Source: Verrucomicrobiia bacterium
GTDB taxonomy: Bacteria; Verrucomicrobiota; Verrucomicrobiia; Limisphaerales; Pedosphaeraceae
Assembly (NCBI GenBank): GCA_036268055.1
Contig: DATAUW010000016.1
Coordinates: 186,001-250,000 of the forward strand
Direction of reading: 5' to 3'
DNA length: 64,000 nucleotides
Shown here: in pieces, positions 10,418 through 35,441 of the stretch
Numbering within the stretch: position 1 is the stretch's first letter
Layout: each line of letters opens with the position of its first letter
Notes under the pieces: generated by a model
Databases searched by the model: none
Seen by the model: the letters and a program-made list of their open reading frames with translations, nothing else
What the model was told of the DNA's origin: nothing
Program-made: the position numbers and the translations under genes

Positions 10418-10419
10418 TT

Positions 10420-11961: not shown

Positions 11962-11973
11962 AATTTTAAAGTT

Positions 11974-12510: not shown

Positions 12511-12519
12511 TAATTAACC

Positions 12520-12540
12520 GGTTACGGCGCATCCGTGACC
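12520..12540 (+). other. Hairpin in the rplF-rplR gap
   Basis: GGTTACGG (12520-12527) and CCGTGACC (12533-12540) form an 8-bp stem (one G-T pair) with a five-base loop. It ends 8 nt before the rplR ATG and has no T-run, so it is not a terminator. A role in translational control or mRNA processing is conceivable but unproven. Confidence 0.45.
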
Positions 12541-12548
12541 CCAAAGCA

Positions 12549-12914: not shown

Positions 12915-12931
12915 TTCAACCAATAAATACT

Positions 12932-13591: not shown

Positions 13592-13599
13592 TCAAATTT

Positions 13600-14124
13600 A
13601 TGCGTTTACACGATCTCAAATACCGTCCCGGCGCCAAACATCGCCGCAAGCGCATTGGCCAGGGTGAATCCAGCGGCCACGGCAAGACCAGCGGACGCGG
13701 TGGCAAAGGCCAGACCGCGCGCTCGGGCAGTTCCATCCGCCCCGGTTTTGAAGGCGGCCAGATGCCCCTCATCCGCCGCATTCCCAAGCGCGGGTTCAAC
13801 AACACCAGCCACGGCACGGAATACATTCCCGTCAATCTCGACGAGTTGAACAGCTTTGAAGAAGGTGCGCGCGTGGACGAAACGGCCTTGCGCAGCCTCG
13901 GCCTGGCGAATGGCAAAATGACCCGCATCAAGATTCTCGGCACCGGCGAAGTTTCCAAGAAACTCACCGTGAGCGCGCATGCGTTCAGTGCTTCCGCCAA
14001 GTCGAAAATTGAAGCCAAGGGCGGCACCTGCGAAATCATCAATACGGATCGTGTCCGTCCGCAGGGTTATGCAAAACCTGAGAAGGCCAGGAAAGCCAAA
14101 TCTTCCAAACCTGCGGGCGCATAG
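13600..14124 (+). CDS. rplO: Large ribosomal subunit protein uL15
   Basis: Protein L15, 174 residues (144 in E. coli), a late 50S assembly protein. The Gly-rich N-terminal segment (RIGQGESSGHGKTSGRGGKG) and RIPKRGFNN are diagnostic. A Lys/Ala/Ser tail lengthens the C-terminus. It lies 8 nt after rpsE and is followed by secY as is usual. Confidence 0.96.
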   Translation: MRLHDLKYRPGAKHRRKRIGQGESSGHGKTSGRGGKGQTARSGSSIRPGFEGGQMPLIRRIPKRGFNNTSHGTEYIPVNLDELNSFEEGARVDETALRSLGLANGKMTRIKILGTGEVSKKLTVSAHAFSASAKSKIEAKGGTCEIINTDRVRPQGYAKPEKARKAKSSKPAGA

Positions 14125-14142
14125 CCTCTGCACCACTGAGAC

Positions 14143-15528: not shown

Positions 15529-15538
15529 TCGCCATCCG

Positions 15539-15556
15539 ACCGGAGACGATTCCGGT
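15539..15556 (+). other. Hairpin in the secY-map gap
   Basis: ACCGGA (15539-15544) pairs with TCCGGT (15551-15556) around a six-base loop, between the secY stop and the map start. It is followed by TTGAAAGG rather than a T-run, so termination is unlikely; processing or attenuation is possible. Confidence 0.3.
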
Positions 15557-15584
15557 TTGAAAGGCAGATTTGAGCTGGCTCAAA

Positions 15585-16361
15585 ATGATTGTTCTGAAAA
15601 ATGAGCGGGACTTGGAAGCGATGCGGCCCGCTTGCACGCTGGCCGGAACGGTGTTGGATGAAGTGGCGGCGTTCGTGAAGCCGGGCATGACGACGAAAGA
15701 CATTGATGTCTATGCGGCGTCCCGGATCAAGAGTTACGGTGGCAAGAGTGCGTTTTTAGGTTATCGTAAGTATCCGTGTAATATCTGCATCTCGGTAAAT
15801 GAGCAGGTCGTACACGGTCTGGCGGGACTGCGCCGGGTGGAATTTGGTGACATAGTTAGTTTGGACGTCGGCGTTGTGTATAACGGATTTATCGGAGACA
15901 CGGCGCGGACAGTGGCAGTCGGTGGTTGCGGTGTACCGGCCCAGCGGTTGATGGATGTAACGGAAAAGTCGCTGTATGAAGGAATTGCACAGGCAGTTTC
16001 CGGCAAGCGAGTTTCGGACATCTCGCGGGCCATACAGAACTACGTTGAAAGCAACGGGTTCAGTGTCGTGCGCGAGTTCGTGGGCCACGGCGTGGGCCGC
16101 TCGATGCATGAAGAGCCGCAGATACCGAACTTTGTGGACGGAAAATCGTCCCCGAAGCTGCGTCCGGGAATGACGCTGGCGATTGAGCCGATGGTCAACG
16201 CCGGGACGCCCGGAGTAAAAATTTTAAATGATGGCTGGACAGTAGTGACGCAGGATGGTTCACTATCCGCCCATTTTGAGCATACGGTTTTAGTCACTGA
16301 AGGTGAGCCGGAGATTTTGACATGGCCCGAGCGGATGCCATCGAAGTTGAAGGCTCAGTAG
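15585..16361 (+). CDS. map: Type I methionine aminopeptidase
   Basis: Removes the N-terminal Met from nascent proteins; 258 residues, the usual type I length. The five metal ligands are visible in order: Asp in SLDVGV, Asp in GDTART, His in GHGVG, Glu in AIEPM and Glu in FEHTVLV. I chose the ATG giving MIVLKNERDLEAMRP; a TTG at 15570 would add five residues. Its last 40 nt overlap the start of infA, so the two are probably translationally coupled. Confidence 0.96.
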   Translation: MIVLKNERDLEAMRPACTLAGTVLDEVAAFVKPGMTTKDIDVYAASRIKSYGGKSAFLGYRKYPCNICISVNEQVVHGLAGLRRVEFGDIVSLDVGVVYNGFIGDTARTVAVGGCGVPAQRLMDVTEKSLYEGIAQAVSGKRVSDISRAIQNYVESNGFSVVREFVGHGVGRSMHEEPQIPNFVDGKSSPKLRPGMTLAIEPMVNAGTPGVKILNDGWTVVTQDGSLSAHFEHTVLVTEGEPEILTWPERMPSKLKAQ

Positions 16362-16546
16362 TGGAAGCTTTGCCGCACGCGATGTATCGGGTCGAGTTGG
16401 CCAACGGACATCGGGTGCTGGCGCATTTTAAGGGCCAGGCCCGCAAAAACGCGGTGAGTTTGGCGGCTGGCGATAAGGTAATGTTAGAGATGTCGCTGTT
16501 CGATTTGTCGAACGGCTGCATAGTGAGCAACGAGAAAAAATTATGA
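16322..16546 (+). CDS. infA: Translation initiation factor IF-1
   Basis: IF-1, 74 residues, an OB-fold protein of the 30S A site. [20 protein letters not shown] aligns from the first residue with the E. coli start MAKEDNIEMQGTVLETLP, so the ATG at 16322, inside the map coding region, is well supported. The remaining core [18 protein letters not shown] and [19 protein letters not shown] is typical. It overlaps map by 40 nt and rpmJ by 4 nt (ATGA). Confidence 0.95.
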
Positions 16547-16656
16547 AAGTTCGCGCATCAGTAAAAAAGCTTTGCGACAACTGCAAGGTCGTCCGGCGCA
16601 AAGGCGTCATCCGTGTCATTTGCACGAATGCCCGCCACAAACAACGTCAAGGATAA
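16543..16656 (+). CDS. rpmJ: Large ribosomal subunit protein bL36
   Basis: Protein L36, 37 residues, recognised from the start [20 protein letters not shown] and the end HKQRQG. Zinc ligands C11, C14, C27 and H32 are all present, so this is the zinc-binding form. The ATG overlaps the infA stop (ATGA), and rpsM follows after 9 nt. Confidence 0.97.
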
Positions 16657-16665
16657 TAGAATTTT

Positions 16666-17061
16666 ATGGCACGCATTATTGGAGTGGAAATTCCCGGCGA
16701 GAAGCGCATTGATATCGCACTTCGCTACATCTACGGCATCGGCCCGGTCAACGCCAAGGTCATCCTCGAAAAAGCGAAGATTGACCCGAGCATCCGCGCG
16801 AAGGACCTGAACGAGCAGCAGATGTCGCAGATCGTTCACGCCATCCAGGACGGCAAATACGTCATCGAGGGCGATCTGCGCCGCGAACTGGGCATGAACC
16901 TCAAGCGCCTTCAGGGCATCAAGTGTTACCGCGGCATTCGCCATCTGCGCAGTCTGCCCGTCCGCGGCCAGCGCACCCAGACGAATGCGCGCACGCGCAA
17001 AGGCCCGCGCAAGACTGTCGGCGTGCAACGCAATCCCAACGCCAAAACCGGCATCCACTAA
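16666..17061 (+). CDS. rpsM: Small ribosomal subunit protein uS13
   Basis: Protein S13, 131 residues, of the 30S head contacting the 50S subunit and P-site tRNA. The start [20 protein letters not shown], the helix-hairpin [13 protein letters not shown] and the basic tail [16 protein letters not shown] are diagnostic. Confidence 0.97.
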
Positions 17062-17070
17062 TCAATTTTT

Positions 17071-17664
17071 ATGGCTGAAGAAAAAAAGAAACCGGCTCCC
17101 AAAAAGGAAGCGAAACCCGAAGGCGCCGCCGAGGAAAAGACGGCCGCCAAAGCCGGCGAAGCGAAGCCCGCGAAGAAACCCGCTGCCGGTGCTGAAGGCG
17201 CTGCTGAAGCGAAACCTGCCGAAGGCGTCGTCGCCGCGGCTGTGGCTCCCACCGCGGCGGAGTTGCTCGCGGACGATCCCAATGCCAAGAAAATCATCAA
17301 GGCCAAGGGTGCGAAAAATATTTCCACCGGCATCGCGAACATCCTCGCGACCTTCAACAACACCCAGGTAAGCATCACGGATTTGCACGGCAATTTGCTG
17401 GGCTGGTCCAGTGCCGGCCGGGTGGGTTTCAAGGGTTCGCGCAAGAGCACCGCGTATGCGGCGCAGCAAGTCGCTCAGGACGCCGCCCGCCAGGCGATGG
17501 CCCACGGCATGCGCGAAATCGAAGTGCGCGTGAAGGGTCCTGGCTCCGGCCGTGAATCGGCCATCCGCGCTCTCCAGGCCATCGGCCTCGAAGTCACCGT
17601 CATCAAGGACGTCACGCCCGTTCCCCACAACGGCTGCCGCCCGCGCAAGAAACGCCGCGTTTAA
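17071..17664 (+). CDS. rpsK: Small ribosomal subunit protein uS11 with long N-terminal extension
   Basis: Protein S11, 197 residues against 129 in E. coli. The core from about residue 77 ([20 protein letters not shown]) to the end ([17 protein letters not shown]) is ordinary and binds the 3' end of 16S rRNA on the platform. The first 75 residues are a low-complexity Ala/Lys/Glu/Pro extension. The ATG at 17071 follows rpsM by 9 nt and has the TTTTT-ATG context of its neighbours, so the extension is probably translated. There is no internal ATG before the core. Confidence 0.93.
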
Positions 17665-17685
17665 TCAACCTCAATATTTTAAGTT

Positions 17686-18294
17686 ATGGCTCGTTATACA
17701 GGTCCCCGCGTTCGCATCAGCCGCCGTTTCGGCGTGCCCATCTTTGGCCCCTCGAAATATCTCGAGCGCCGCAATTACGGCCCCGGCGTTCACGGCCCGA
17801 AGTCCCGCCGCAAGCACACGGATTACGGCCTCGGCTTGATCGAGAAGCAAAAGTTGCGCTATTACTACGGCCTCATGGAACGCCAGTTCCGTGGTGTCTA
17901 TGAGCGCGCACTCCGCCGCCGCGGTGTCACCGGCGAACAGATGTTGCAGATCCTCGAGACCCGCCTCGACAACGTCGCATTTCATCTCGGTTTTGCCGCC
18001 ACGCGTTCCGCGTCGCGCCAGTTGATCAGCCACGGCCACGTGAAGGTCAATGGCCGCAAGGTGAACATCCCTTCGTTCGCGCTCAAGGTGAACGATATCG
18101 TGGAAGTCAAAGAGTCCAATGTCTCGCGCCAGCTTGCCACCAAGAACATGGAAATGGCGACCAGCCGCGCGGTGCCCGATTGGCTTTCGTTGAACAAGGA
18201 AGGCTTCAAAGGCGTGATTATGCGCATCCCTACCCGGGATGAAATCCAGCCGATCGCGAACGAGCAGGCCGTTGTTGAATTTTATTCCCGTTAA
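17686..18294 (+). CDS. rpsD: Small ribosomal subunit protein uS4
   Basis: Protein S4, 202 residues, primary 16S 5'-domain binder. The S4 RNA-binding domain is at about 90-150 (LETRLDNVAFHLGFA, then INWRQLISHGHVKVNG-like sequence read here as RQLISHGHVKVNGRKVNIPS). The N-terminal region has no cysteines, so it is the zinc-free form. It is followed by a 106-nt gap with a hairpin before rpoA. Confidence 0.96.
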   Translation: MARYTGPRVRISRRFGVPIFGPSKYLERRNYGPGVHGPKSRRKHTDYGLGLIEKQKLRYYYGLMERQFRGVYERALRRRGVTGEQMLQILETRLDNVAFHLGFAATRSASRQLISHGHVKVNGRKVNIPSFALKVNDIVEVKESNVSRQLATKNMEMATSRAVPDWLSLNKEGFKGVIMRIPTRDEIQPIANEQAVVEFYSR

Positions 18295-18302
18295 TTAAAA
18301 CC

Positions 18303-18320
18303 GCCCTTCTCGCGAAGGGC
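18303..18320 (+). other. Hairpin in the rpsD-rpoA gap
   Basis: GCCCTTC (18303-18309) pairs with GAAGGGC (18314-18320) around TCGC, 9 nt after the rpsD stop. It is followed by ACAAAAAGG, with no T-run on the + strand. It may be an attenuator, a processing site or a 3'-end stabiliser ahead of rpoA. Confidence 0.5.
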
Positions 18321-18400
18321 ACAAAAAGGCAAATACACGGGTCGTTCCGGCGCGGGAATAAAACCGGGGCGATCAGATTACATTTGCCAGAAAGAAAACC

Positions 18401-19429
18401 ATGCCAGTACGTTTAGGACGTTTCGAAATGCCCAAACGGTTGACCAAGGAAGAGTCAACCGCAACGGAAACCTACGCCAAGTTTGTCGCCGAACCCTTTG
18501 AAACCGGTTATGGCCACACTATCGGCAATTCCCTGCGCCGCGTGTTGCTCTCTTCTCTCGAAGGAGCGGCCATCACCTCGATCAAGATTGACGGCGCCAT
18601 GCACGAATTCACCACTGTTGACGGTGTGGTGGAAGATGTCACCGACATCGTGCTCAACTTGAAGAAAATTTTGTTCAAGGCCCACAGCCGTGAACCGCAG
18701 ACGCTCTTGCTTTCCGTGAACAAGGAAGGCGAAGTGCTCGCCGGCGATATCGAGCTGAACCAGAACATTGAACTTGTCAATCCCAAGCAGCACATCTGCA
18801 CGCTCGACAAGAAGAAAAAATTTGAGATGGAGCTTGAAGTCAAAGTCGGTCGCGGCTTTTGCCCGGGCGATGAAAACAAAAAGCCCAACCAAGCCATTGG
18901 CGTGGTCGCGATTGACTCGTTGTTCTCGCCCGTGACGCGCGTGCGTTACGCAGTCGAGAGCGCGCGTGTCGGTCAGCGCACGGATTATGACCGTTTGCTG
19001 ATTGAGATCTGGACGGATGGACGCATTTCGCCGGATGACTCGCTCACGCAAGCCTCGGCTATTCTCCAGCATCATTTGGATGTGTTCGTCGGCTACGACA
19101 AGAACGCCATCGAATTCGAAGAAGTGGTGGACAAGCAGGACGAGGAAAAGACCAAGCTCAAGAAACTGCTCGGCATGAGCGTGAACGAAATCGAGCTGAG
19201 CGTCCGCGCCGCCAACTGCCTCAACAACGCGAACATCACGACCGTCGGCCAGTTGGCCATGAAGACCGAAGCTGAGATGCTCAAATACCGCAACTTCGGC
19301 AAAAAATCCCTCAACGAAATCAAAGAGAAGCTGTCCTCGCTCGGCTTGACTTTGGGCATGACCTTCGACGCGGACACGCTCGAAACGCCCAAGGAAGACG
19401 CCGCCGCTGTGGCCGCCACCGTGGAATAA
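18401..19429 (+). CDS. rpoA: DNA-directed RNA polymerase subunit alpha
   Basis: RNA polymerase alpha, 342 residues. The N-terminal assembly domain has EPFETGYGHTIGNSLRRVLL, and the C-terminal domain (about 245-325) has ELSVRAANCLNNANI and KSLNEIKEKLSSLGL, the usual UP-element and activator-binding fold. A short Ala/Asp/Glu tail ends it. It lies between rpsD and rplQ, as is usual, after a 106-nt gap, and could have its own expression level. Confidence 0.97.
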   Translation: MPVRLGRFEMPKRLTKEESTATETYAKFVAEPFETGYGHTIGNSLRRVLLSSLEGAAITSIKIDGAMHEFTTVDGVVEDVTDIVLNLKKILFKAHSREPQTLLLSVNKEGEVLAGDIELNQNIELVNPKQHICTLDKKKKFEMELEVKVGRGFCPGDENKKPNQAIGVVAIDSLFSPVTRVRYAVESARVGQRTDYDRLLIEIWTDGRISPDDSLTQASAILQHHLDVFVGYDKNAIEFEEVVDKQDEEKTKLKKLLGMSVNEIELSVRAANCLNNANITTVGQLAMKTEAEMLKYRNFGKKSLNEIKEKLSSLGLTLGMTFDADTLETPKEDAAAVAATVE

Positions 19430-21629: not shown

Positions 21630-22559
21630 TCAATTTCCCGAAGGCAAGGACATCCGTTGAAAAAGCCAGATGAAGTCAGCGCTTTCAGAAGAGTCAATCC
21701 ATAGCGGCAGCGCAAGAGTATCGGGCACGGGTGGTGGGCAGGTGCTGTTGAACTGCCAATGATGAATTTCCGAGTGTCCGTCCGCAAAAGAAAAACTACA
21801 GCCACCGTTGTGATAGGAGCCCGGCATGTCCACCCAATTATAATCAGGGTTGGCATATCCCGGCAAGGGAGATGGCGATTGCTCGACAAAATAACCGTCG
21901 TTGATGCTGTCAGGATGTTCGTCGAGAAAAACAAAAATTCCCGACGGATTTAAAATTTCGCCGTCCTTGAGAAATTGGCGGTAACCTTTGTTGTTAATAT
22001 TGCCGCCGGAGACGAGCAGGTTGCCGGGATCGCCAATCATTGCATTCATCGAGACGCTGCGCACCCGCGCGGTGAAACCGGCATTTTTTTGGGCGTCGCT
22101 TAGCACGCGATCGGCGGGGCATCTATAAATGCTCGCCGAATAACCGGTGTAAGGTCCAAGCAGCGAGGTCGAGACGAATGCGGTGTTGGTATTCGCCGGA
22201 GCAGTTGTCCAATCCATGACGTTGTCCACCCAGTTGGGCTGGCCGGCCGGGGCGACGTTTAGAAGGCTGTTGCTGCCGACCACGCCGCCGAGATTGTAAA
22301 CCAAACGATCCCCGTTATCGCCGGAATAAAGCGACCATGCGAAGGTTAATTGACGCGTATTGTTCACGCAACCGAGGGCAAGGGCGCGCGAGCGCGAGCG
22401 TGCCAACGCGGGGAAAAGCAACCCCGCAAGGATCGCAATAATGGCAATTACGACGAGTAATTCAACCAGGGTAAAACCATCGCCAGCGCGAGACCGGTAA
22501 GCTTGAAACAACCCAGCCGAACCGCTCTCACGTCTGCCGCTATGGAATTGAAGTGTCAC
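21630..22559 (-). CDS. Prepilin-like secreted protein with H-X9-DG motif
   Basis: A 309-residue protein with a type IV prepilin/pseudopilin N-terminus: after a 28-residue leader comes [19 protein letters not shown], with Glu at +5 of the presumed cleavage site. Near the C-terminus is the H-X9-DG motif ([14 protein letters not shown]) that marks a large family in Planctomycetes and Verrucomicrobia, of unknown function. No ATG precedes the motif, so a GTG start is proposed. The gene stands alone with no pilus assembly genes nearby. Export and processing by a prepilin peptidase are inferred. Confidence 0.85.
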
Positions 22560-24754: not shown

Positions 24755-24846
24755 GTACATGCACCGCAAAAATTTCCCGCCCTGGGGCATTTGAACATTT
24801 GAACCATAGCCCAATTCAGAGTATCAGTTAGAAGCAGTTGCTTTTT

Positions 24847-25512
24847 ATGTTGCGGCGAATGACATGTCTATTCGAGGCGGCCTTTTTTTGGGGGCTCGCC
24901 GTGGCGTTGTTTGCCGGTTGTGGTCCCTCGCCATCGGCATCGAACAAAACGCCACCCGCAGAGATTCACGGCGAACCGATCACGCCCGTGAAAAATTCCT
25001 CCACCACGGTCGCCATTGCCGTTCCTATTCTCGCCGCTTCCATTTCCGCACCAATCACAAAAAATCCTGAGCCGATGTTGCTTGCCGAAAATTCCGATTA
25101 CATTCCCGTAGGCTTCGATAAATTGGCGTCTTATCATTTTGAAACTGACGACACCCCTTACACCAATCAAGACGCCACCGCTGACAAGGCGAACCAGCAA
25201 ATTCCCGATACGATCAAAAATTTGAGCGATAAAAAAATTTCCATCAAAGGTTTCATGTTGCCGTTGAAAGTGTCCGATGGTGTGGTGACAGAATTTTTGA
25301 TCATGAAAGACCAGTCTATGTGCTGCTTCGGCACGACGCCGAAAATCAACGAGTGGGTCAGCGTCAAAACCGTGGGCGCGGGCGTGAAGCCGATCATGGA
25401 CCAGCCCGTGAGCATGCTCGGCACGCTGCACGTCGGCGCGCTGCGCGAGAATGGTTATCTCGTGGGCATCTACCAAATGGACGGCGATAAACTTGTGGGG
25501 ACGGATAATTGA
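24847..25512 (+). CDS. Lipoprotein with DUF3299-like domain
   Basis: A 221-residue lipoprotein: signal peptide with lipobox LFAGC (lipidated Cys25), a Ser/Thr/Pro linker, and a C-terminal domain at about 85-220. The domain has IKGFMLPLKVSDGVVTEFLI followed by the conserved CCFG and INEWVSVKT, as in DUF3299 proteins, which are often found with ABC-type or metal-related periplasmic systems; its function is not established. A TTG at 24838 is an alternative start. The next gene begins 37 nt downstream. Confidence 0.75.
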   Translation: MLRRMTCLFEAAFFWGLAVALFAGCGPSPSASNKTPPAEIHGEPITPVKNSSTTVAIAVPILAASISAPITKNPEPMLLAENSDYIPVGFDKLASYHFETDDTPYTNQDATADKANQQIPDTIKNLSDKKISIKGFMLPLKVSDGVVTEFLIMKDQSMCCFGTTPKINEWVSVKTVGAGVKPIMDQPVSMLGTLHVGALRENGYLVGIYQMDGDKLVGTDN

Positions 25513-26017: not shown

Positions 26018-26698
26018 TTACTGCCACCCGTGCATCGAGTCGTAGCGGAACGTCATTTCATTCGTCACATATCCTTTGTACCACTTCGCGTGGCCATCAT
26101 CGAAAAGAATGTTTTGACCGCCATTATGAGTTTGCCACGCGGTTGAGGGCGTGCCGTTTTGATCGCCACCCACGCAATTCTGCGAGTAGTCGTCCTTGTC
26201 GGCATCGTCCGGAGTAAAATCCACGGTGTCACCCGATAACACATACGCCGACACATAAAGAATCTGCCGCGTGTCCACCGACGCAAAATTTTCATTGGCC
26301 GCGATGTAAGCCGCCCGGACGCCATTGAAATAACTATAGGAAGAGTGGATATCGGACGGACAATGATACGCGTTGGTGTTTTGCAGATACGGAATCAACT
26401 GCTGCATCCAGCTTGTTTGGAGCGTGTCGGTATCAACCTGGTTCCATGCGATCAATTTTCCCGATTCGGGATAGCGACCGTTGAAATCATCCGAGTAAAG
26501 CTGCATTGAGATGCTGATTTGATGCAGGTTTGAAGCGCATTGAATCGTCCGCGCGTGTTGTTTGGCCTCCGATAACGCGGGCAATAGCAACGCGGCGAGA
26601 ATCGCGATGATGGCGATCACGACGAGCAACTCGATCAATGTGAACGCGCGCATCGTCCGCAAAACTTTACGGTCTATTTTCGATCCTGATTTCATCAT
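26018..26698 (-). CDS. Prepilin-like secreted protein with H-X9-DG motif
   Basis: A 226-residue protein of the same general family as the one at 21630. After a basic leader comes [21 protein letters not shown], with Glu at +5; the residue before the cleavage site is Ala rather than Gly. THNGGQNILFDDGHAKWYKG near the C-terminus gives the H-X9-DG motif. I chose ATG 26698; a GTG at 26716 would add six residues. Its role is unknown, and no assembly genes adjoin it. Confidence 0.83.
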   Translation of the reverse strand: MMKSGSKIDRKVLRTMRAFTLIELLVVIAIIAILAALLLPALSEAKQHARTIQCASNLHQISISMQLYSDDFNGRYPESGKLIAWNQVDTDTLQTSWMQQLIPYLQNTNAYHCPSDIHSSYSYFNGVRAAYIAANENFASVDTRQILYVSAYVLSGDTVDFTPDDADKDDYSQNCVGGDQNGTPSTAWQTHNGGQNILFDDGHAKWYKGYVTNEMTFRYDSMHGWQ

Positions 26699-26835
26699 TG
26701 CCGGAAATCCATCCACGCTGGAAGTCGCCGTGAACTGGATACAAAGCCAAATTGCCTAACTTGAGTTAGCCAGTAACTCAGACGCAGCACGGGGAAAGTT
26801 TCTTCAAAGGAAAACTGAGGTGGACGAAACAGAAA

Positions 26836-28089
26836 TTATTTGCCGACGAGCGTTTGTTGGAAGTCGTCGAGATGACCGGCGAAAACCTGCGGCTTGAAAT
26901 CGGGAATGGATTGCGCGTCCTTGAACAACTGATTGAGCGGCGCGTCGAGACGCTTGCTGGTATCGGGATCTCCGAGACCGGCAATGAGGCGGTCAAGCGC
27001 AAGAACGAGTCGCTCCGCGCGGCGGGCCACGGTGGAATGCTTGACATTGGGTTCGCGGAAACTCGCGCCCGTCGCCGCTAGAGCTTCGAGGCATTTGCGC
27101 GCATCGGCGGCAGACCAGGAACTGGCCGCAGCCTGCTTCGCGAAATCATCCGCCCACTTTTGTGCGGCGGCGGCGTTATTGGGAGTGACATCGCCAGAGA
27201 TGGAAGCGGATGGCAGCGCGTCGTTGCCTTTCGCAGCGGACTCGAGCAACCAGAGCACGGCCGAAGTCCGCGCCTCGGCATGTTCACCGGCCACAGTTTC
27301 GCGGGATAATTGCCAGCTCATTTCGCGCAGCCCAACAGCCTGGCCGACCAGCCAGGTTTGCGGTCCCGACCAATTAGGCTTCTCTCGCCAATGCTTGGGC
27401 TCGGTGACCGATTGGCCGTCGAGTTCAAAAATCAATTCGGGATGGCCAGCTTTAAGAATATCACCATCCACATTTTGATGGCAGGCCACGCAACTATTCG
27501 CACGTGTATAAATATTGTCGAGGTCGCGCATGCCGGCGTGAACGCGATCAGCGTGGGTCCAATCAGGACGCGTGTGACCGAGCAGCCATTTTTGCGCGGG
27601 GCCGTGACAATTTTCGCACGAAACACCGGAAGCAGGATCGAGCGCCTTCACGAGCGCGTCGGTATTGGCAATCGTTTGAAAAGGTTCGTGGCAAACCGTA
27701 CAGCGTGAACTCACCGTGGGATCGCTGATTTTTAAATTGTCCGCTATGCGGGCGGAACGCGCGCCGGTGAGCGTGGCGAAGGAGCGCGTATGCACATCCA
27801 ATTTTTTCCAGCGAATGGTTTGATCGTGTTTTTCACCCGCACCCCCGTGGCAGCCGGAAGAAGCGCATGAAGACTCACCGAGAAAGGCACTCGCGGCAGA
27901 AGCATCCGTATCGGTGTTCTGCGCGTAGAGTGAAGTGGTGCGCGCCGTGAAAAGGGTCAGGAATAAACTGGCAAGCCAGACTGTGCTGGTATGATTGCGT
28001 CCCCAGTTTAGGCTTAGAAAAAGTCTTAAACTAAATCGTTTACTCCGCACGCTGGGTTTGTTAATAAACAAGCCAAGACAAAAATGCAA
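26836..28089 (-). CDS. Secreted tetrahaem cytochrome c
   Basis: A 417-residue exported cytochrome. After a signal sequence ending near ARTTSLYAQ (about residue 57) come four haem motifs: CASSGCH (75-81, with four residues between the cysteines), CTVCH (130), CENCH (158) and CVACH (200). The later AGHPELIFELDG and the helical C-terminal half resemble c554-like multihaem proteins. No ATG is available; the frame opens at TTG 28089, 28 nt from the divergent reductase gene, while GTG 28050 would be a shorter start. The neighbouring redox cluster suggests that it exchanges electrons with it. Confidence 0.85.
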   Translation of the reverse strand: MHFCLGLFINKPSVRSKRFSLRLFLSLNWGRNHTSTVWLASLFLTLFTARTTSLYAQNTDTDASAASAFLGESSCASSGCHGGAGEKHDQTIRWKKLDVHTRSFATLTGARSARIADNLKISDPTVSSRCTVCHEPFQTIANTDALVKALDPASGVSCENCHGPAQKWLLGHTRPDWTHADRVHAGMRDLDNIYTRANSCVACHQNVDGDILKAGHPELIFELDGQSVTEPKHWREKPNWSGPQTWLVGQAVGLREMSWQLSRETVAGEHAEARTSAVLWLLESAAKGNDALPSASISGDVTPNNAAAAQKWADDFAKQAAASSWSAADARKCLEALAATGASFREPNVKHSTVARRAERLVLALDRLIAGLGDPDTSKRLDAPLNQLFKDAQSIPDFKPQVFAGHLDDFQQTLVGK

Positions 28090-28117: not shown

Positions 28118-29407
28118 ATGCAAAAAATCTTAGAGGGTAATCCGCTTCTGGTTATAGGGTACATTTTCCTGGGGATGCTTTTTGCGCAAGGATGTTTGAT
28201 TCTGTGGGGCACACTCAAACGAGTTTATTATCAGCAGGAGCATCACCGTCTTTCCCGCGAGCGGCTTCAGTTGCAGGTCAAGGCCGCCGCATTGCAGTGC
28301 CGTGAAGTCGAGGCAAATAAAGCGCTCTGGAACGGTTTTAGAAAATTTCGCGTTGAAAAAAAATTCACTGAGTGCAAAGGCGTCTGCTCTTTTTATCTCA
28401 AGCCGCACGACGGCAAACCGCTGCCCGCCTACAAGCCCGGCCAGTATATTACCTTTCAATTAAATATTCCCGGCGTGCCCAAGCCGGTGGTGCGTTGTTA
28501 CTCGCTTTCAGATAGTCCGCATCGGGGCGATTACTATCGCGTTACGATAAAAAAAGAACCAGCGCCGCCAGACAAACCCGAACTTAAGCCCGGCGTGGCC
28601 TCGAGTTATTTCGTGGACGTGGTAAAAGAGGGCGACATCCTCGACGTCAAGGCGCCGGCGGGAAATTTCTTTCTCGACATGGCAAAGGAAACTCCGGTCG
28701 TGCTCGTGAGCGGCGGCGTGGGTGTCACGCCGATGTTGAGTATGGCGCATGCGATCAACGCGGCGGGAGCACGGCGCGAAATTTATTTTTTCTTCGGCGC
28801 GCGCAACCACGACGAGCACATCCATAAAGAGGAAATGCTCCGGCTGGCTAAGGAGTATGAGAATGTCCACATGCATGTCTGCTACAGCCGCCCGGATACG
28901 GCGCGCGACAAAGCCGGCGTGGATTATCAGCATGAAGGCCGCGTCTCGGTGGAATTGTTCAAGGAAGTTTTGCCTTCCAATAATTTCGATTATTTCCTTT
29001 GCGGCAACGGCGCGTTCATGAAGTCTATTTCCGAAGGTCTCGAAGCGTGGGGCGTGCCGGACAAGAACGTGAACTTTGAAGCGTTCGGTCCCGCGACGGT
29101 GAAGAAAAAAGCCGCTCCCGCTCCCGCCGCGGTTACGGGTGCGCCCGCCGCCGGCATCGCCGTTACTTTCAGCAAGACTGGCAAGACCTGTGAATGGTCG
29201 CCCGGAGGCGGATCGCTTTTGGATTTCGCTTTGGAACAGGGAGTGCGCATTGATTCCGGTTGCCGCGCGGGAAGCTGTGGGAGTTGCCTCGTCGCCATTA
29301 AATCCGGCGACGTGGAGTATGTAAGTGAAGCAGGGGAAAAGCCCGAAACAGGTTCGTGTCTGACGTGCATCTGCAAGCCGAAGGGACCGCTGGTCCTGGA
29401 CGCCTGA
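28118..29407 (+). CDS. Membrane-anchored FAD/NAD(P)H reductase with C-terminal 2Fe-2S domain
   Basis: A 429-residue protein: one membrane helix at about 10-30 and a coiled stretch, then a ferredoxin-NADP reductase-like module with the FAD motif RCYSLSDSP (about 128-136) and the nucleotide-binding motif GGVGVTPMLS (about 193-202), an Ala/Pro linker (about 328-345), and a plant-type ferredoxin with C382, C387, C390 and C417. This resembles NqrF and flavohaemoprotein-type reductases rearranged with the iron-sulfur domain last. It is the first gene of a + strand redox set, divergent from the tetrahaem cytochrome, and probably feeds electrons from NAD(P)H into it. Confidence 0.85.
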   Translation: MQKILEGNPLLVIGYIFLGMLFAQGCLILWGTLKRVYYQQEHHRLSRERLQLQVKAAALQCREVEANKALWNGFRKFRVEKKFTECKGVCSFYLKPHDGKPLPAYKPGQYITFQLNIPGVPKPVVRCYSLSDSPHRGDYYRVTIKKEPAPPDKPELKPGVASSYFVDVVKEGDILDVKAPAGNFFLDMAKETPVVLVSGGVGVTPMLSMAHAINAAGARREIYFFFGARNHDEHIHKEEMLRLAKEYENVHMHVCYSRPDTARDKAGVDYQHEGRVSVELFKEVLPSNNFDYFLCGNGAFMKSISEGLEAWGVPDKNVNFEAFGPATVKKKAAPAPAAVTGAPAAGIAVTFSKTGKTCEWSPGGGSLLDFALEQGVRIDSGCRAGSCGSCLVAIKSGDVEYVSEAGEKPETGSCLTCICKPKGPLVLDA

Positions 29408-29432
29408 TTTTGAATTGGCTGGGATTTAATAT

Positions 29433-31160
29433 ATGGCTTCCGTAACCGCTTTAGTGCTGGACCGGCCGCAACGCTGGGACAACGCTTTTGATTCCGAAAT
29501 GACGCCGGAAATGGTGGCGCGCCTGCTTCAGTTGGCGCCTTTCCGGGACATGAAAGCGGAAAATTTTCCCAAGCGCCTCGCCCTCTCGGATATTCTTCAA
29601 CACGACGTTCGCATCCGCCGTTTTGACAAGGACGAAATCGTGGTGCGTGAAGGCGATTACGGCACGTCGGCGTTCATGATCATGTCCGGCAAGGTGCGCG
29701 TAGTGCTCGGCAATCTGCCGGCCTCGGTGCTGGGCCGCCGTGAACCGACGCGCAAAGGGATCTTTAGAGTGCTGGCGCAGATTTTTACGTCGCGCAAGGA
29801 ACCGGAAAGTTTCCGACCTTCGCAACTCAAGCAGGACAGCCGTGTCGCCGCGCGCAAGGGGCAAAACGATGAAGTGAAAGTTTTTCTCCAAGACGTGCCG
29901 CGCATCCTCGATGAAAACAAAACGGCCATCCTCGAACCGGGAGAATTTTTTGGTGAAATCGCCGCGCTGAGCCGCATGCCGCGCACGGCGACTGTTTTTG
30001 CGGACACCGACGAGACCGAATTGCTCGAAATCCGCTGGCAGGGTTTGCGCGATCTGATGCGCTATGACAACGGCCTGCACGAACACATAGATGCCATCTA
30101 TAGGAAGCGCGCCCTAGCCGCGGCCTTGCGCGAGATCCCATTTTTCCGCCAGTTGACCGACAGTGAATTGCAGCAGGTGATGGCTCAAACCGAGTTCGGC
30201 ACTTACGGCGAATATGACTGGTCGGGTGAATACAAGCGCCTCGCGCAATCCGGAAGCGGCAGCCAGAAACCGGAAGCGGTGATTGCGGCGGAAGGCGATT
30301 ATCCCAATGGCGTGGTCATTATTCGCGCGGGCTTCGGGCGGCTCAGCCAGAAATTTGGCAATGGCAACCGCACCTTGAATTACCTCGGCGCGGGCCAGGC
30401 CTATGGTTTCGAGGAAATCGCACACAACTGGCAAAATCCCAAAGCGCCCGTCGCCCTGCAACATTCCCTGCGTGTCATCGGCTACACCCACGTGCTGATC
30501 GTGCCGACGGCGGTCATGGAATCCATTGTCCTGCCGACCTTGCCAAAGCGTCTCATGCCGGACCCGGTGGTCGAGCGCGTGGATCGCGAAATAGTCGCTC
30601 CCGAGCCGGTGGATGCAGCCGCCAAAATCGGCGCGGACACCTTGGAATTTTTGACCGAGAATCGTTTCTTCAACGGCACGGCTTCCATGGTGATTGACCT
30701 GGATCGCTGTACGCGTTGTGACGATTGCGTGCGTGCGTGTTCGACGGCGCATGATAACAATCCGCGTTTTCTCCGCCACGGCCCGTCAAATGGAAATATT
30801 ATGGTCGCCAATGCGTGCATGCATTGTGTGGACCCGGTTTGCATGATCGGCTGTCCGACCGGCGCGATCCACCGCGATGCCTTCGGCGGCCAAGTCGTGA
30901 TCAACCCGATCACCTGCATTGGTTGTCGCGCCTGTTACAATAATTGTCCCTACGACGCCATCCGCATGGTGGAGATCCGCGATACCTCCGGCGAATTCAT
31001 GGTGGACCAGGACATGAAGCCGATCAGCAAGGCGACCAAATGCGATTTGTGCGTCGAACAAATGACTGGTCCGGCGTGCGAACGGGCGTGCCCGCACGGT
31101 GCGCTCAAACGCGTAAACCTTAACGAACTGGATGCGTTCGCCAAGTGGTTGAAACGATGA
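29433..31160 (+). CDS. Cyclic-nucleotide-binding-like domains fused to a four-cluster ferredoxin
   Basis: A 575-residue protein. Residues about 40-220 form a cNMP-binding-like domain, split by a 45-residue basic insertion; its phosphate-binding segment FGEIAALSRMPRTATV keeps the Glu and Arg typical of ligand binding. A second, more divergent domain follows at about 225-375. Residues 415-575 form a ferredoxin of the DmsB/HybA type with four cysteine groups: CTRCDDCVRAC (426), CMHCVDPVCMIGC, CIGCRACYNNC and CDLCVEQMTGPACERAC. No membrane segment is seen, so it is probably cytoplasmic. Its TGA overlaps the next ATG (ATGA). Such fusions exist in databases, but their role is not known to me. Confidence 0.85.
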   Translation: MASVTALVLDRPQRWDNAFDSEMTPEMVARLLQLAPFRDMKAENFPKRLALSDILQHDVRIRRFDKDEIVVREGDYGTSAFMIMSGKVRVVLGNLPASVLGRREPTRKGIFRVLAQIFTSRKEPESFRPSQLKQDSRVAARKGQNDEVKVFLQDVPRILDENKTAILEPGEFFGEIAALSRMPRTATVFADTDETELLEIRWQGLRDLMRYDNGLHEHIDAIYRKRALAAALREIPFFRQLTDSELQQVMAQTEFGTYGEYDWSGEYKRLAQSGSGSQKPEAVIAAEGDYPNGVVIIRAGFGRLSQKFGNGNRTLNYLGAGQAYGFEEIAHNWQNPKAPVALQHSLRVIGYTHVLIVPTAVMESIVLPTLPKRLMPDPVVERVDREIVAPEPVDAAAKIGADTLEFLTENRFFNGTASMVIDLDRCTRCDDCVRACSTAHDNNPRFLRHGPSNGNIMVANACMHCVDPVCMIGCPTGAIHRDAFGGQVVINPITCIGCRACYNNCPYDAIRMVEIRDTSGEFMVDQDMKPISKATKCDLCVEQMTGPACERACPHGALKRVNLNELDAFAKWLKR

Positions 31161-31981
31161 ATTCATTTTCGAAACAACGGTGGCGGGGAATTGTTTTGCT
31201 TCTGATTTTTTCTGCGGCCTGCATTGCGGCTTACTTCAAATACGGCCCGGTATTTCCGCGCTTGAGCTACTTTACCGGCGCGCTGCTCTTCGCCGTGATG
31301 GTGATCCTCACGCTTTATAATGGCCGCAAAAAACTGCCGTTTCTTCCGCTTGGCACTTCCGAAGGCTGGCTGCAATTCCACATCTACGCCGGATTTTTTA
31401 CAGCAGTGTTGTTTGTGCTGCACATCCGGTTTCGCTGGCCCACCGGCTGGTTCGAGATCGTGTTGTTCACACTGTATGTGCTGGTGACGTTGAGTGGCAT
31501 TGCGGGCTTGATCGTCACGCGCATGATTCCCAAACGTCTGACCACGCGCGGCGGCGAAGTTTTATATGAGCGCATCCCGGTTATTCGCGCGATGTTGCAG
31601 GAGCAGGCCGAGATGCTGGCCTTGAAATCCATGCCGGCGATGCACTCGACGACCATCGCGGATTTTTATACGCGTTATCTGGACGACTTCTTTGACGGCC
31701 CGCGAAATTTGTCGCTGCACATCTTTGAAGTCCGGCGTCCGCTCAATGTGTTGCAAAATCGCATCACCGACCTGAGCCGTTATCTCAACGCGCAGGAACA
31801 GGAGACGCTCAACAAAATCTCAACGCTCGTCCGGCAGAAGGATGGCCTGGATTATCATCAATCGTTGCAAACGCTATTGCGCGGCTGGCTGTTCGTTCAC
31901 ATCCCACTGACGTATAGCCTGATGCTGTTTTCGATCATGCACATTGTGTTGGTCTATGCTTTCTCGGGAGGAGCCCGGTGA
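31157..31981 (+). CDS. Cytochrome b-like integral membrane protein
   Basis: A 274-residue protein with about five membrane segments (residues ~9-27, 35-53, 77-95, 102-125 and 245-270) and a 100-residue helical loop between the fourth and the last. Histidines sit inside helices (FHIYAGFFTAVLFVLHIRF, FVHIPLTYSLMLFSIMHIVL) at spacings suited to bis-His haem b. It may be the quinone- or haem-bearing link between the cytoplasmic ferredoxin and the decahaem cytochrome. ATGA overlap upstream and GTGA overlap downstream imply tight coupling. Confidence 0.7.
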   Translation: MNSFSKQRWRGIVLLLIFSAACIAAYFKYGPVFPRLSYFTGALLFAVMVILTLYNGRKKLPFLPLGTSEGWLQFHIYAGFFTAVLFVLHIRFRWPTGWFEIVLFTLYVLVTLSGIAGLIVTRMIPKRLTTRGGEVLYERIPVIRAMLQEQAEMLALKSMPAMHSTTIADFYTRYLDDFFDGPRNLSLHIFEVRRPLNVLQNRITDLSRYLNAQEQETLNKISTLVRQKDGLDYHQSLQTLLRGWLFVHIPLTYSLMLFSIMHIVLVYAFSGGAR

Positions 31982-33699
31982 AAGACCAGTTGCCTTCGCC
32001 TGATCCCGATTCCAGCCATTATGTGCGGCCCACGCAGCAGTGGATTTGTGGCAAGGCGGCCGAAGGCCAGAGCTGCCGCATCGGCCCGGATTGCCACGGT
32101 AATTGCCGTGCCGTTTCTGAATGCGCGCCGGTGCTCGAAGTCAAGCCGGGCGACGCCAAGGGCCGTTACAAATGCACGCGCCCGCCTGAATACGGCGGCC
32201 CTTGCGAAAATGGCCCGCTGCCCAATGGCAGTTGCGGACGCCCCATCACCCGTTGCCAGCCAATCCGCAGTCTGCGCAACCGCCGCAAGGTGGTCACGAG
32301 TTTCATAACGATGTTGACGGTCGCGCTGCTGCTCGTCGCCATGGGTGGCGAAAAACGCTGGAACTTTATTAGCCCAGGAAAAATTTCGTCGCAACATTCC
32401 GGTTCAGGGTTTTCAGAAGCCTTCGCGTGGATGCATTCTGGCGAAGCCGCGACTGATTCCAGTTGCGCCGCCTGCCACGTTAGCGCGCGCGCGAAATCCG
32501 CCGGATGGGTAGTCACCGCACTCGAATCCAATCCAGGCCCATTGCATCGCCACACGCTCGCGCTCATGACCGTGTCGGACATGACTTCGATAGATGAGAA
32601 TTGCGAGCGCTGCCATACCGGCCACACTTTTCACGAGCCGAACGTGGTGCAGGACCATTCCTGCTCCGCGTGCCATCGCGAGCACATGGGCTCGGGGCTG
32701 ATGAAAGCGCCGGCGGACAGCAACTGCGAAATCTGCCACGGCAACGCGAGCATCATGGAAGCATCCGCCGCGAAAGGAGCTACTCTATCGCCGGCTCTGT
32801 TTAATTTCCGCCCTGACAACGGGCGCAATGTTTTTCACGCCCCGCGTCCGAAGGAAGGTTACACCAAAGTCATTCATTCCTTCGCAACCGACCATCCGGA
32901 ATTCCAAATCATCGCGGACAGGTTGCAGGATCCCGACTCGCTCAAGTTCAATCACCAAAAGCATCTGACCTCGCCCACGATTCCGCTGGTGAACGGCCAT
33001 AAATTGGAGTGCGTGGATTGCCATAAACTTGACTCGGCTGGGCATTACCGGCAATCCATCACGTTCGAGCAAAATTGCCGCCAATGTCACTCGCTGCAAT
33101 TTGACACGCACAACCCCGACCTTGCAGTGCCCCACGGCGACTCAGCGTTCGTGCGCGATTTCCTCCGCAGCTTGCCGGTGCAATACGCAGAATATGGCCT
33201 TCATAAAAGGGGCATCGTCGCGAAGGCCGACCTTGATGATTTCGTCCAACAACAGATGAAGCAAATCCGCGACGACGAAATCAGCGGCGAAGACCTCGAG
33301 CAAAAAGTTTTCTTCGGCGATTCCAAACAACAGCGCGCGCAGTTTCCCGCCTGCACTTACTGTCACGAAGTGAAACCGAATGGCGATGGCGCGCCGATCG
33401 TCACCAAGCCCGTGATCATGGATCGCTGGATGGTGCGCGGCAGCTTCGATCACTCAAAGCATCTAACGGTCGAATGTATGAAATGCCACGAAGTTTTGCA
33501 CAGCACGCAAACTTCTGATGTGTTGCTGCCATCCAAAGCAACATGCGTGGAATGCCACAGTCCCAAAGGTGGCGTGGCGAATGGTTGCTCGACTTGCCAC
33601 AGTTACCATGCGCCCTCCAATGGAACGCAAGTCCAGGTCAAGGCCATGCCCGGCGACCATGCGACGAGCGGTATGATAAGGTTGGCGGAGCAGAAGTAG
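31978..33699 (+). CDS. Decahaem cytochrome c with nine-cysteine N-terminal domain
   Basis: A 573-residue protein in three parts. Residues 1-100 hold nine cysteines (24, 33, 39, 43, 49, 66, 76, 86, 93) and many Gly/Pro, suggesting a cytoplasmic metal or Fe-S site. A membrane helix follows (about 105-123), preceded by RNRRK, which orients the N-terminus inside. The periplasmic part has ten CxxCH haem motifs at 163, 209, 229, 250, 345, 367, 459, 500, 523 and 537. The GTG start overlaps the previous stop. It is probably the terminal wire of the locus, able to pass electrons outward; the acceptor is unknown. Confidence 0.85.
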   Translation: MKDQLPSPDPDSSHYVRPTQQWICGKAAEGQSCRIGPDCHGNCRAVSECAPVLEVKPGDAKGRYKCTRPPEYGGPCENGPLPNGSCGRPITRCQPIRSLRNRRKVVTSFITMLTVALLLVAMGGEKRWNFISPGKISSQHSGSGFSEAFAWMHSGEAATDSSCAACHVSARAKSAGWVVTALESNPGPLHRHTLALMTVSDMTSIDENCERCHTGHTFHEPNVVQDHSCSACHREHMGSGLMKAPADSNCEICHGNASIMEASAAKGATLSPALFNFRPDNGRNVFHAPRPKEGYTKVIHSFATDHPEFQIIADRLQDPDSLKFNHQKHLTSPTIPLVNGHKLECVDCHKLDSAGHYRQSITFEQNCRQCHSLQFDTHNPDLAVPHGDSAFVRDFLRSLPVQYAEYGLHKRGIVAKADLDDFVQQQMKQIRDDEISGEDLEQKVFFGDSKQQRAQFPACTYCHEVKPNGDGAPIVTKPVIMDRWMVRGSFDHSKHLTVECMKCHEVLHSTQTSDVLLPSKATCVECHSPKGGVANGCSTCHSYHAPSNGTQVQVKAMPGDHATSGMIRLAEQK

Positions 33700-33775: not shown

Positions 33776-35353
33776 TCACAACGCCGGGTTGCGCGGGAAC
33801 TTGGCGTAGGGCAGACGGGCGTCACTGTAGAAAAAGTGGTCGGAACGGATGTTGACGGGCGCGAGAAAATTTGCGGTGCCGGAAGCAGTAATAATATCGT
33901 CCTGATCCACGCCATCGCCTGACACGCCGATGGCACCGATCAACTGGCCGTTGCGATACAGCGGAAAACCGCCGGGGAAAATCGTGATGCCGTTTGGCAG
34001 ATTGGGATCAGGTGTTGCCAAAGCGGAACTGAGCACGACGCCATTGAGCGGATTCATCGCGCCAGCCGGGAAAAGCGAAAAGTGCTCTTGCATGCCCCAG
34101 AAAATTCCCGGTTCAGTGCCATTGAGGCCGGGCGGGAAAAATTCCTCGGCGAGGAAGCCGACGGCACGTGCCGAGAAAGCGTAATTGGTGCTGGAGAAAA
34201 ATACGGCAGTGCGGGCCTTCTGAACCGCAACATCCCAACTGAACATGGTCGCGCCTTTGGTGCGAATCGTGCCGAGCACGACTGGAGTGCCGCCGTCTAT
34301 GTTCGGATTATTGACCACGGTGATGAAGACTTGCGCCGCCTGGCCGCGAGGAAGGCGGATGCCCGCGCGGGTGGTGCGGGCACGATCGGCGGCGAGCGAA
34401 AGGATGCCGACGACTTCATTAGATGTAAGGCGCGCTGCTCCATTGATGTTGCCCACGAGCGGATCATCGCGAATTGGCTGGCGGATTTCGCACATCTGGC
34501 CTCCAAAAGTATTGGTCGGGTACGGGAAAAGCGGCGGCGAGGCCATCACTGCGTACGGAGCCACATGCTGATCAGGTAAACTGGCAAACGGCGTGACGGC
34601 GCCAAGGCTCGTGGTGCTGCTGACATAGGCCAGGCGGAAGCCATTGATGGTATCGTTGGAGCCAAAATAAATCGGGTCGGGCGAATAATCAGTCTCGGCG
34701 GCCAGAGCCACGTCTTCATCAATGGTTGGCGTTTGCACGTTTTGGATGGCGGTGGCGTCATCCATGTGAGAAACACCCACGCCGCCGACGAGATAATTGC
34801 TGACGTAAAGGGGAACGCCGCCGGGTGCGCCAGCGAGGCCGCCAGTCACCGGTTGTGGAACGCTTACGACATAATTAGAAGTCGCAGGACTGGCGACATT
34901 GGTGACGATACTGCCGGGACCTTTGATGCGATTGATGTCGGAGAATTGCAGGTTGGAGAAATTGACGCCAACGAGTGGGCCAGGGCCGGAATTTTGGACG
35001 TTGGGCGGAAAATTTTGTTGAACAATGAAACCCGCAGTGCGAGAGGTAAAGGCATGTTGATCACTACTGAGAAAGGAGGCAGTCCCGGCCTTCCCAATCG
35101 CAATCGCGAGAACAGCTTGCGACGGGGTGGTCCCATTAACCGACCAGACGCCACAGACGAAACCCTCCCGATCCACCACGGCGATAACACTATCGGGAGA
35201 GATGACTTTTGCGCGGGCAACTCCTTGTGCGATAACCTTTTGCACGTCGGACAATGCGAGTTGTGGAATGGGCTGAAAAAGACCGTATTGGGCAAAGCCC
35301 GGATAGGCTGCCAGCCCCAGACCAAAAACGATTGCCAACAAGCGTTTTATCAC
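33776..35353 (-). CDS. Secreted protein with two GlcG/HbpS-type haem-binding domains
   Basis: A 525-residue exported protein: signal peptide MIKRLLAIVFGLGLAAYPGFA, then two GlcG/HbpS (Haem_degrading, DUF336) domains. The first (about 34-215) has VIAVVDREGFVCGVWSV, AFTSRTAGFIVQ and GVPLYVSNYLVGGVGVS; the second (about 310-505) has the matching AFSARAVGFLAEE and FPLYRNGQLIGAIGVSGDG. The family binds haem or acts as glycolate-utilisation accessory; the function here is unproven. No ATG exists in the frame; GTG 35353 gives a proper signal peptide, and a TTG at 35431 is less likely. It converges on the decahaem cytochrome gene. Confidence 0.75.
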   Translation of the reverse strand: MIKRLLAIVFGLGLAAYPGFAQYGLFQPIPQLALSDVQKVIAQGVARAKVISPDSVIAVVDREGFVCGVWSVNGTTPSQAVLAIAIGKAGTASFLSSDQHAFTSRTAGFIVQQNFPPNVQNSGPGPLVGVNFSNLQFSDINRIKGPGSIVTNVASPATSNYVVSVPQPVTGGLAGAPGGVPLYVSNYLVGGVGVSHMDDATAIQNVQTPTIDEDVALAAETDYSPDPIYFGSNDTINGFRLAYVSSTTSLGAVTPFASLPDQHVAPYAVMASPPLFPYPTNTFGGQMCEIRQPIRDDPLVGNINGAARLTSNEVVGILSLAADRARTTRAGIRLPRGQAAQVFITVVNNPNIDGGTPVVLGTIRTKGATMFSWDVAVQKARTAVFFSSTNYAFSARAVGFLAEEFFPPGLNGTEPGIFWGMQEHFSLFPAGAMNPLNGVVLSSALATPDPNLPNGITIFPGGFPLYRNGQLIGAIGVSGDGVDQDDIITASGTANFLAPVNIRSDHFFYSDARLPYAKFPRNPAL

Positions 35354-35441
35354 CGCCAAAAGTGTGTGGCGGAAAAGAACTGGCGGCAAGTGCAAAGTTG
35401 GGTATGTTAGGTGCTGTTGAGAACATAGCAAAAATGAGAAG

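Follow-up and report, generated by a model that had tools for sequence, protein, structure and literature searches.

A locus of four redox genes, located at positions 28118–33699 on the + strand of a 64,000-nt stretch of verrucomicrobial DNA (contig DATAUW010000016.1, positions 186,001 to 250,000; the whole stretch is referred to as the window hereafter), was analyzed together with its flanking genes. The four genes encode an NAD(P)H reductase (FNR), a ferredoxin fused to cyclic-nucleotide-binding domains (CNB), a membrane protein (MB), and an anchored decahaem cytochrome (CYT). Judging from the sequences, the locus would supply those parts of a porin-cytochrome conduit to the cell exterior that lie in the cytoplasm, the inner membrane and the periplasm, with NAD(P)H as the electron source; we give this reading a probability of roughly two-thirds. 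The original prediction, made on the same DNA, had proposed a possibly undescribed transmembrane conduit leading from NAD(P)H to periplasmic haems. The gene content, the synteny and the invariant ligands support this proposal, and it is from them that we infer electron flow.

The neighbourhoods of the locus were compared by tblastn and the mapping of open reading frames (ORFs) in 20 cases: 19 belong to relatives of the same order, and the remaining one lies on another contig of the genome that contains the window. In a wider survey, one genome per species was scanned with a CNB alignment; at least 565 relatives were found, and the locus tallies given below were taken from the best 80 of them. 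The ORF and translation checks, combined with domain scans, confirmed that four redox genes occupy the locus in the same direction, as predicted. The predicted overlaps at the last two junctions were also verified: the ATGA of the CNB/MB junction lies at 31157–31160, with the MB start most likely at 31157, and the GTGA of the MB/CYT junction lies at 31978–31981, with the CYT start at 31978. Such reading-frame overlaps recur in the relatives (45 of 56 CNB/MB pairs and 45 of 62 MB/CYT pairs).

The genes stay together across phyla. FNR accompanies CNB in 75 of the 80 loci, MB and CYT are found in all of them where the contig permits, and a gene for a tetrahaem cytochrome (C554) is present in most. 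Most of these 80 relatives belong to Verrucomicrobiota; the others include Planctomycetota (among them Uabimicrobium amorphum and strain ZRK34) and, going by the titles of the records, SAR324 and Poribacteria. Closed genomes carrying the locus include those of IMCC26134, ZRK34 and Uabimicrobium amorphum. The FNR-CNB-MB-CYT synteny, usually with C554, was also found in further loci of the same order. Because the gene order is retained in almost all of the 80 relatives, the arrangement is not a product of chance.

Three types of loci were distinguished. One is clade A, the type of the window, in which C554 is divergent from FNR. Another is its sister type, clade B, in which C554 is co-oriented and mostly placed between FNR and CNB. 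The last is clade C, in which CYT lacks a cysteine-rich domain described below; it comprises six loci (L031, L033 and L168–L171). In the window, the C554 gene occupies 26836–28089 on the − strand (start codon uncertain); it matches Pfam Cytochrome_C554 and encodes a periplasmic protein with three CxxCH motifs and one CX4CH motif, a haem count kept in the relatives. In clade A, almost all loci that have room for this gene show it next to FNR in divergent orientation, and in clade B it is co-oriented; the idea that the four genes alone form the unit was rejected on this ground. Thus, of the predicted four-gene unit, the four genes are genuine and the limit is not: the conserved bacterial gene set is larger than four genes, C554 belongs to it, and an HbpS-like gene, considered later, is linked to it.

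The cytoplasmic side of the putative conduit is represented by the first two genes. FNR (28118–29407, + strand; 429 residues) is a predicted FAD/NAD(P)H reductase with a C-terminal plant-type 2Fe-2S domain (Pfam FAD_binding_6, NAD_binding_1 and Fer2). It carries an N-terminal transmembrane (TM) segment within residues 4–34, followed by a basic KR, and its nucleotide motif is present in 63 of 63 cases. CNB (29433–31160, + strand; 575 residues) is a fusion of cyclic-nucleotide-binding domains, arranged in tandem, with a ferredoxin resembling HycB and DmsB: it matches Pfam cNMP_binding with 81 bits (cut-off, 27.5) and also Fer4, and among the PDB sequences it matches HycB and the cyclic-nucleotide-binding domains of PKA and PKG. 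By its family match and its PKA-like phosphate-binding cassette, GEFFGEIAALSRMPRTAT (29940–29993, + strand), CNB is a member of the cNMP_binding family, and ligand binding is predicted. The Glu and Arg of the cassette (E175 and R184) are invariant in the alignments A1 and A3, and the cassette pattern is found in 74 of 74 homologues. The ferredoxin part contains four [4Fe-4S] cysteine motifs between C426 and C553 (30708–31091, + strand; invariant columns in the alignment A1). Its 16 invariant cysteines form four [4Fe-4S] quartets, by which CNB is classed as a four-cluster ferredoxin of the HycB/DmsB type, and the motif counts are identical in 73 of 74 homologues. The four Fe-S clusters of the original prediction hold for CNB, but the 2Fe-2S cluster of FNR is not counted there, nor are the two Cys4 sites that CYT may have.

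MB (31157–31981, + strand; an alternative GTG start at 31145 is less likely) gave no Pfam or NCBIfam match at E 0.001. It is a predicted membrane protein of the dihaem-b type, for which hydropathy indicates up to five TM segments. Four histidines (H75, H89, H248 and H262, numbered from 31157) are invariant in 39 of 39 homologues. They form two pairs, spaced by 14 residues, in two TM helices, in agreement with the spacing of 13–14 residues in NOX and ferric reductases, and these invariant residues suggest that MB carries two stacked haems b; the haem b path foreseen for a His-rich membrane protein is consistent with them. The AlphaFold model (all predicted structures in this work are AlphaFold models of single chains) is confident and helical, with a mean predicted local distance difference test (pLDDT) score of 91.5, and shows TM4 and TM5 separated by a long insert. 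This loop, of approximately 120 residues, is predicted to be cytoplasmic, and the charge pattern is compatible with it and the N-terminus being inside. From this charge distribution and topology, the histidine pairs would place one haem near each membrane face. In VIA-align comparisons, HyaC cytochrome b, cytochrome b6, b561 and SpNOX were found at Z 8–10, SpNOX (Z 8.3) standing among other helical folds. In profile searches with the homologues, Ferric_reduct appeared in 3 of the 39, at best with E 0.035, and DUF4405 in 24 of the 39.

CYT (31978–33699, + strand; 573 residues) is predicted to be a periplasmic decahaem cytochrome c held in the membrane by a single N-terminal TM segment, with its N-terminus inside. 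As had been claimed, it has exactly ten CxxCH motifs, and the same number is found in 74 of 76 homologues. The predicted anchor (residues 103–125; 32284–32352, + strand) follows RSLRNRRK and was located by hydropathy, with the corresponding AlphaFold helix at residues 99–123; the motif positions place the ten-haem periplasmic region at 32464–33600 (+ strand). Family scans gave weak matches to Cytochrome_C7/c3 and a TmcA match of 19.7 bits, the cut-off for that family being 114. The AlphaFold model has a pLDDT of 77, and its structural matches are weak and ActA-like (Z 4.0), the search having barely covered the part ahead of the anchor.

That part contains a domain (residues 24–93; 32047–32256, + strand), absent from the original prediction, defined by cysteine conservation and predicted to be cytoplasmic. 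It consists of two repeats resembling C-x8/9-C-x9-C-x5/6-C-x-P, and its eight cysteines are invariant in 44 of 44 sequences; it is referred to as the Cys8 domain hereafter. No relative was found in Pfam or among the PDB sequences. The domain may represent a pair of Cys4 sites, perhaps with bound metal. A clear correspondence is seen in clade C: the Cys8 domain is missing from the CYT of all six loci, and FNR is missing from all six neighbourhoods (Fisher, 4e-7, from a manual tally of related loci in which three cases were uncertain or at a contig edge). Because the two are jointly absent, the Cys8 domain may serve the FNR branch, and the pattern suggests a role as a docking or relay site.

The clade C loci also bear on a different input, in which MB would draw on menaquinol while FNR and CNB form a separate branch or a reverse one reducing NAD(P)+ or ferredoxin. 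CNB, MB and CYT are kept without FNR in most clade C loci, and in L170 only C554 and CYT are kept; moreover, two quinone-handling proteins, HyaC cytochrome b and cytochrome b6, are among those that MB resembles, and the best-known extracellular conduits (CymA, CbcL and ImcH) take their electrons from the quinone pool. However, FNR is found with CNB in nearly all of the 80 loci as described above, a cytoplasmic four-cluster ferredoxin would be superfluous for a step from quinol to the periplasm, and the Cys8 domain disappears together with FNR. We therefore regard a quinol-fed conduit as unlikely. As to L170 itself, the divergent C554-CYT pair (6663–10733), with a CYT of clade C, has neither CNB nor MB nearby, and the porin and the big cytochrome are located elsewhere in the genome; another inner-membrane input may exist there.

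The reading as an extracellular conduit fed by NAD(P)H also requires partners in the outer membrane, and candidates were found by clustering the flanking ORFs of the relatives' loci. In clade A, they are a protein of about 800 residues, PORIN_A (27 loci), whose full-length copies end with -TY, -RY or -TF, and an exported ten-haem LVIVD cytochrome of about 1300 residues (18 loci). In clade B, they are a barrel-like protein of about 490 residues, PORIN_B, mostly with a -KF end (12 loci), and a pentahaem cytochrome, recognised by its five CxxCH motifs (13 loci); here, both of them adjoin FNR. The porins match no named porin family, and they are predicted to be outer-membrane barrels from their C-terminal aromatic signature and length. 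The co-occurrence was examined in 58 genomes of the same order and in a wider sample of 289 genomes across the phylum. In the former, both clade A partners are present in all of the 16 genomes whose CYT is of clade A or C and in only 1 of the 42 without such a CYT (Fisher, 2e-13), and this lone genome is 57% complete. In the latter, a CYT of clade C was located elsewhere in each of the three genomes that have the big cytochrome but no CNB match, and the five genomes with CNB only carry clade B loci.

The window's own genome conforms to both arrangements. A locus on another contig (L143; contig C4:45500-65400, 6033–13635) encodes a porin and a 1281-residue decahaem LVIVD cytochrome, with an NHL-like repeat protein next to them in the same direction; this pair is probably the outer-membrane half of the window's conduit. 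A second full operon, of clade B (L038; contig C24:79000-98500, 1037–11619), runs in a single direction through the genes for a pentahaem cytochrome, a porin-like protein, FNR, tetrahaem C554, CNB, MB and decahaem CYT. Thus, both by adjacency in the relatives and by the pair in the genome, a predicted porin is encoded with multihaem c-cytochromes, as in porin-cytochrome systems. The candidates for the cytochrome inserted into the porin (the role of MtrA) are CYT, which is membrane-anchored, and C554, which is small. Extracellular or periplasmic acceptors had been thought possible; the co-occurrence and adjacency of the porin and the exported cytochrome favour the extracellular over a purely periplasmic destination.

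The same observation weakens the reading in which the locus encodes a periplasmic reductase whose electrons are not exported and whose terminal enzyme is C554 or CYT; its substrate might be nitrite, nitric oxide, peroxide, or a compound of sulfur or selenium. C554-like cytochromes are known from nitrogen metabolism and HbpS from redox stress, and ExtM, an NCBIfam family from a selenite/tellurite operon, matches part of the large decahaem protein. The ExtM match, however, covers 50 residues with 60 bits against a cut-off of 800, and a periplasmic terminus does not agree with the almost exclusive co-occurrence of CYT with a porin and an exported decahaem cytochrome. We consider this alternative quite improbable.

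The gene downstream of CYT, convergent with it (33776–35431, − strand), encodes a double-domain HbpS/GlcG-like protein (Pfam HbpS-like). A gene of this kind occupies the same position in many clade A loci, and in L156–L158 it adjoins PORIN_A and the extracellular decahaem gene. Because a homologue adjoins the porin pair there, the protein is probably an accessory part linked to the locus. The presence of such a haem-handling protein, both at the locus (within or next to it) and next to the porin pair, could also speak for a role in iron acquisition, by which ferric iron or haem would be reduced at the cell or outside it, rather than for one in respiration or redox balance, and the histidine spacing of MB is that of ferric reductases and NOX. 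Nevertheless, more than 20 c-haems per conduit would be a costly route to iron, and the conserved neighbour clusters that were inspected contained no recognisable gene for a TonB receptor or a siderophore; iron acquisition is a very unlikely purpose in our estimate.

Under the preferred reading, electron export from NAD(P)H, the following order of transfer is proposed. The membrane-anchored FNR would oxidise NAD(P)H and pass single electrons via FAD to the 2Fe-2S cluster, one at a time, as reductases of this family do. The electrons would then enter the four [4Fe-4S] clusters of CNB, where, considering the joint absence described above, the Cys8 domain of CYT may dock FNR or relay from it. The ferredoxin would reduce the cytoplasm-side haem b of MB and then the periplasm-side haem, as the histidine pairs and the topology imply. 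MB may in turn reduce the ten haems of CYT, with tetrahaem C554 aiding the crossing of the periplasm. Finally, from the co-occurrence and adjacency, PORIN_A and the LVIVD decahaem protein would deliver the electrons to the outside, where humic quinones or metal oxides, for example, could accept them. No quinone step would be required in this path, unlike the input of the CymA, CbcL and ImcH types.

We infer the outward direction, the order of transfer and the acceptor from the observed gene content, ligands, synteny and co-occurrence. The carriers are all reversible in principle, and flow could also run inward, with an extracellular donor (Fe(II) or reduced humics) driving the reduction of NAD(P)+ or a low-potential ferredoxin. 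However, judging from known potentials, donors at or above about −0.2 V would need an energy input to reduce NAD+, and the gene set has no energy-coupling subunit, which makes inward flow highly improbable.

The CNB domains may add control to this path. The cassette is intact, six class III cyclases are encoded in the window's genome, and CHASE2-cyclases adjoin 14 of the relatives' loci; these observations suggest that a cyclic nucleotide, by binding to the CNB domains, gates the conduit. A repeated block is found 3′ of CYT in L045, L049, L055–L058, L061 and L062 (about 11500–19300), composed of an outer-membrane-like protein of about 350 residues, a FecR-domain protein and a CHASE2 nucleotidyl cyclase; the FecR/CHASE2 block could be a signalling partner of the CNB domains. 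The most specific form of the proposal, a ligand-gated and quinone-bypassing path from NAD(P)H to the outside in which a two-site Cys4 domain of CYT relays from FNR, is tentative, and we hold it to be possible though doubtful.

Several points weigh against the export reading or parts of it. For MB, a Foldseek search found nothing at E 0.001, the fold matches are mixed with unrelated helical bundles, for which Z 8–10 is expected generically, and a quinone site in the protein is possible. The clade C loci without FNR indicate that NAD(P)H is not the sole possible input, and L119 is an exception to the joint occurrence: its CYT bears Cys8, and no FNR lies within 9 kb upstream. The outer-membrane genes are not adjacent to the conduit within the window, and the HbpS-like and C554 neighbours are compatible with other roles too. 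The cyclase adjacency, on which part of the gating proposal depends, clusters in one subclade. Finally, the direction of flow is not readable from the sequence.

If the export reading is true, widespread and mostly uncultured bacteria of Verrucomicrobiota, Planctomycetota and other phyla would export electrons straight from NAD(P)H without a quinol step. This could account for the survival of anoxia in organisms without anaerobic reductases, and second-messenger signalling would be tied to electron flow; with a ligand-gated conduit, extracellular electron transfer would be under post-translational control by cyclic AMP or cyclic GMP. The CNB-ferredoxin, MB and the Cys8-bearing CYT can serve as markers in metagenomes, where current searches rely on porins and haem counts.

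Some other genes of the window lie near the locus. Two of them (21630–22559 and 26018–26716, both on the − strand) encode prepilin-like proteins, which are common in Verrucomicrobiota. Another (24838–25512, + strand) encodes a DUF3299 protein, a homologue of which is located a few kb from the locus in L034 (15726–16397), possibly by chance.

As to known systems, the original prediction did not recognise the set as a named complex, and no match of such composition was found in Pfam, NCBIfam, the PDB sequences or the literature searched. A named complex was rejected as an explanation: NCBIfam gave only partial matches below the cut-offs (Hmp, HydN, DmsB and the TmcA match mentioned above). MtrCAB of Shewanella and OmbB-OmaB-OmcB of Geobacter likewise combine multihaem cytochromes, a porin and an exported cytochrome across the envelope. 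In contrast to them, CYT gives no match to the MtrA/DmsE family, and no quinol oxidase of the NapC/CymA type is found among the conserved genes; the input consists instead of FNR, the CNB-ferredoxin and a b-type cytochrome.

Within the same phylum, verrucomicrobial clusters of a porin and multihaem cytochromes, with an eight-haem periplasmic cytochrome, have been proposed, and IMCC26134 is among the carriers (He et al. 2017; PMC5615132). The idea of extracellular electron transfer and the organism IMCC26134 are common to that work and ours, and its text mentions no ferredoxin, reductase or cyclic nucleotide (PMC5615132). In IMCC26134, another locus (L172, 7423–12271) encodes an NrfH-like hexahaem cytochrome, an eight-haem DmsE/GSU2203-like cytochrome (seven CxxCH and one CX4CH) and a 763-residue porin without similarity to PORIN_A or PORIN_B. 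This locus fits the published description in haem count and organism, and its porin is unrelated; identity of the present locus with the published clusters was rejected on this ground. The two conduits very likely differ, and IMCC26134 likely has two kinds of porin-cytochrome system, L172 being likely the one of He et al.

A survey of June 2026 (PMC13264449) described, in its passages on the ghost-rock Group 1 clusters, a large decahaem cytochrome beside a porin of about 20 strands. In 7 of 11 cases, a gene for a ferredoxin-NADP+ reductase lay close by, and coupling was suggested; the survey's metagenome-assembled genomes with porin-cytochrome genes were mostly from Gammaproteobacteria or Acidobacteriota. 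Because a reductase gene was reported there near porin/decahaem pairs, the link to NAD(P)H has not gone wholly unnoticed. As far as these passages go, the Group 1 clusters probably overlap the outer part of the present conduit, and no CNB-ferredoxin, similar b-cytochrome partner or cyclic nucleotide is mentioned in them (PMC13264449). In the literature searched, which left subscription journals and preprints outside, the module of CNB-ferredoxin, b-type cytochrome and Cys8-bearing CYT is undescribed, and nothing was found that connects cyclic nucleotides to multihaem proteins or to extracellular electron transfer. The locus thus probably belongs to a conserved trans-envelope conduit with an apparently undescribed input module.

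The closest parallels to this input are found in two groups of systems. One is Fre-MsrQ-MsrP and the NOX/ferric reductases, in which a flavin reductase sends NAD(P)H electrons outward via a dihaem-b membrane protein; here, by contrast, a four-cluster CNB-ferredoxin would link the flavin to haem b, with a chain of multihaem c-cytochromes as the product. The other is the ferredoxins FdnH, HycB and DmsB, which belong to the same fold family and occupy the same place in the wiring, between a catalytic subunit and haem b. Compared with them, the ferredoxin of the present locus is fused to tandem cyclic-nucleotide-binding domains with an intact cassette, and its partner is FNR instead of a molybdoenzyme or a hydrogenase.

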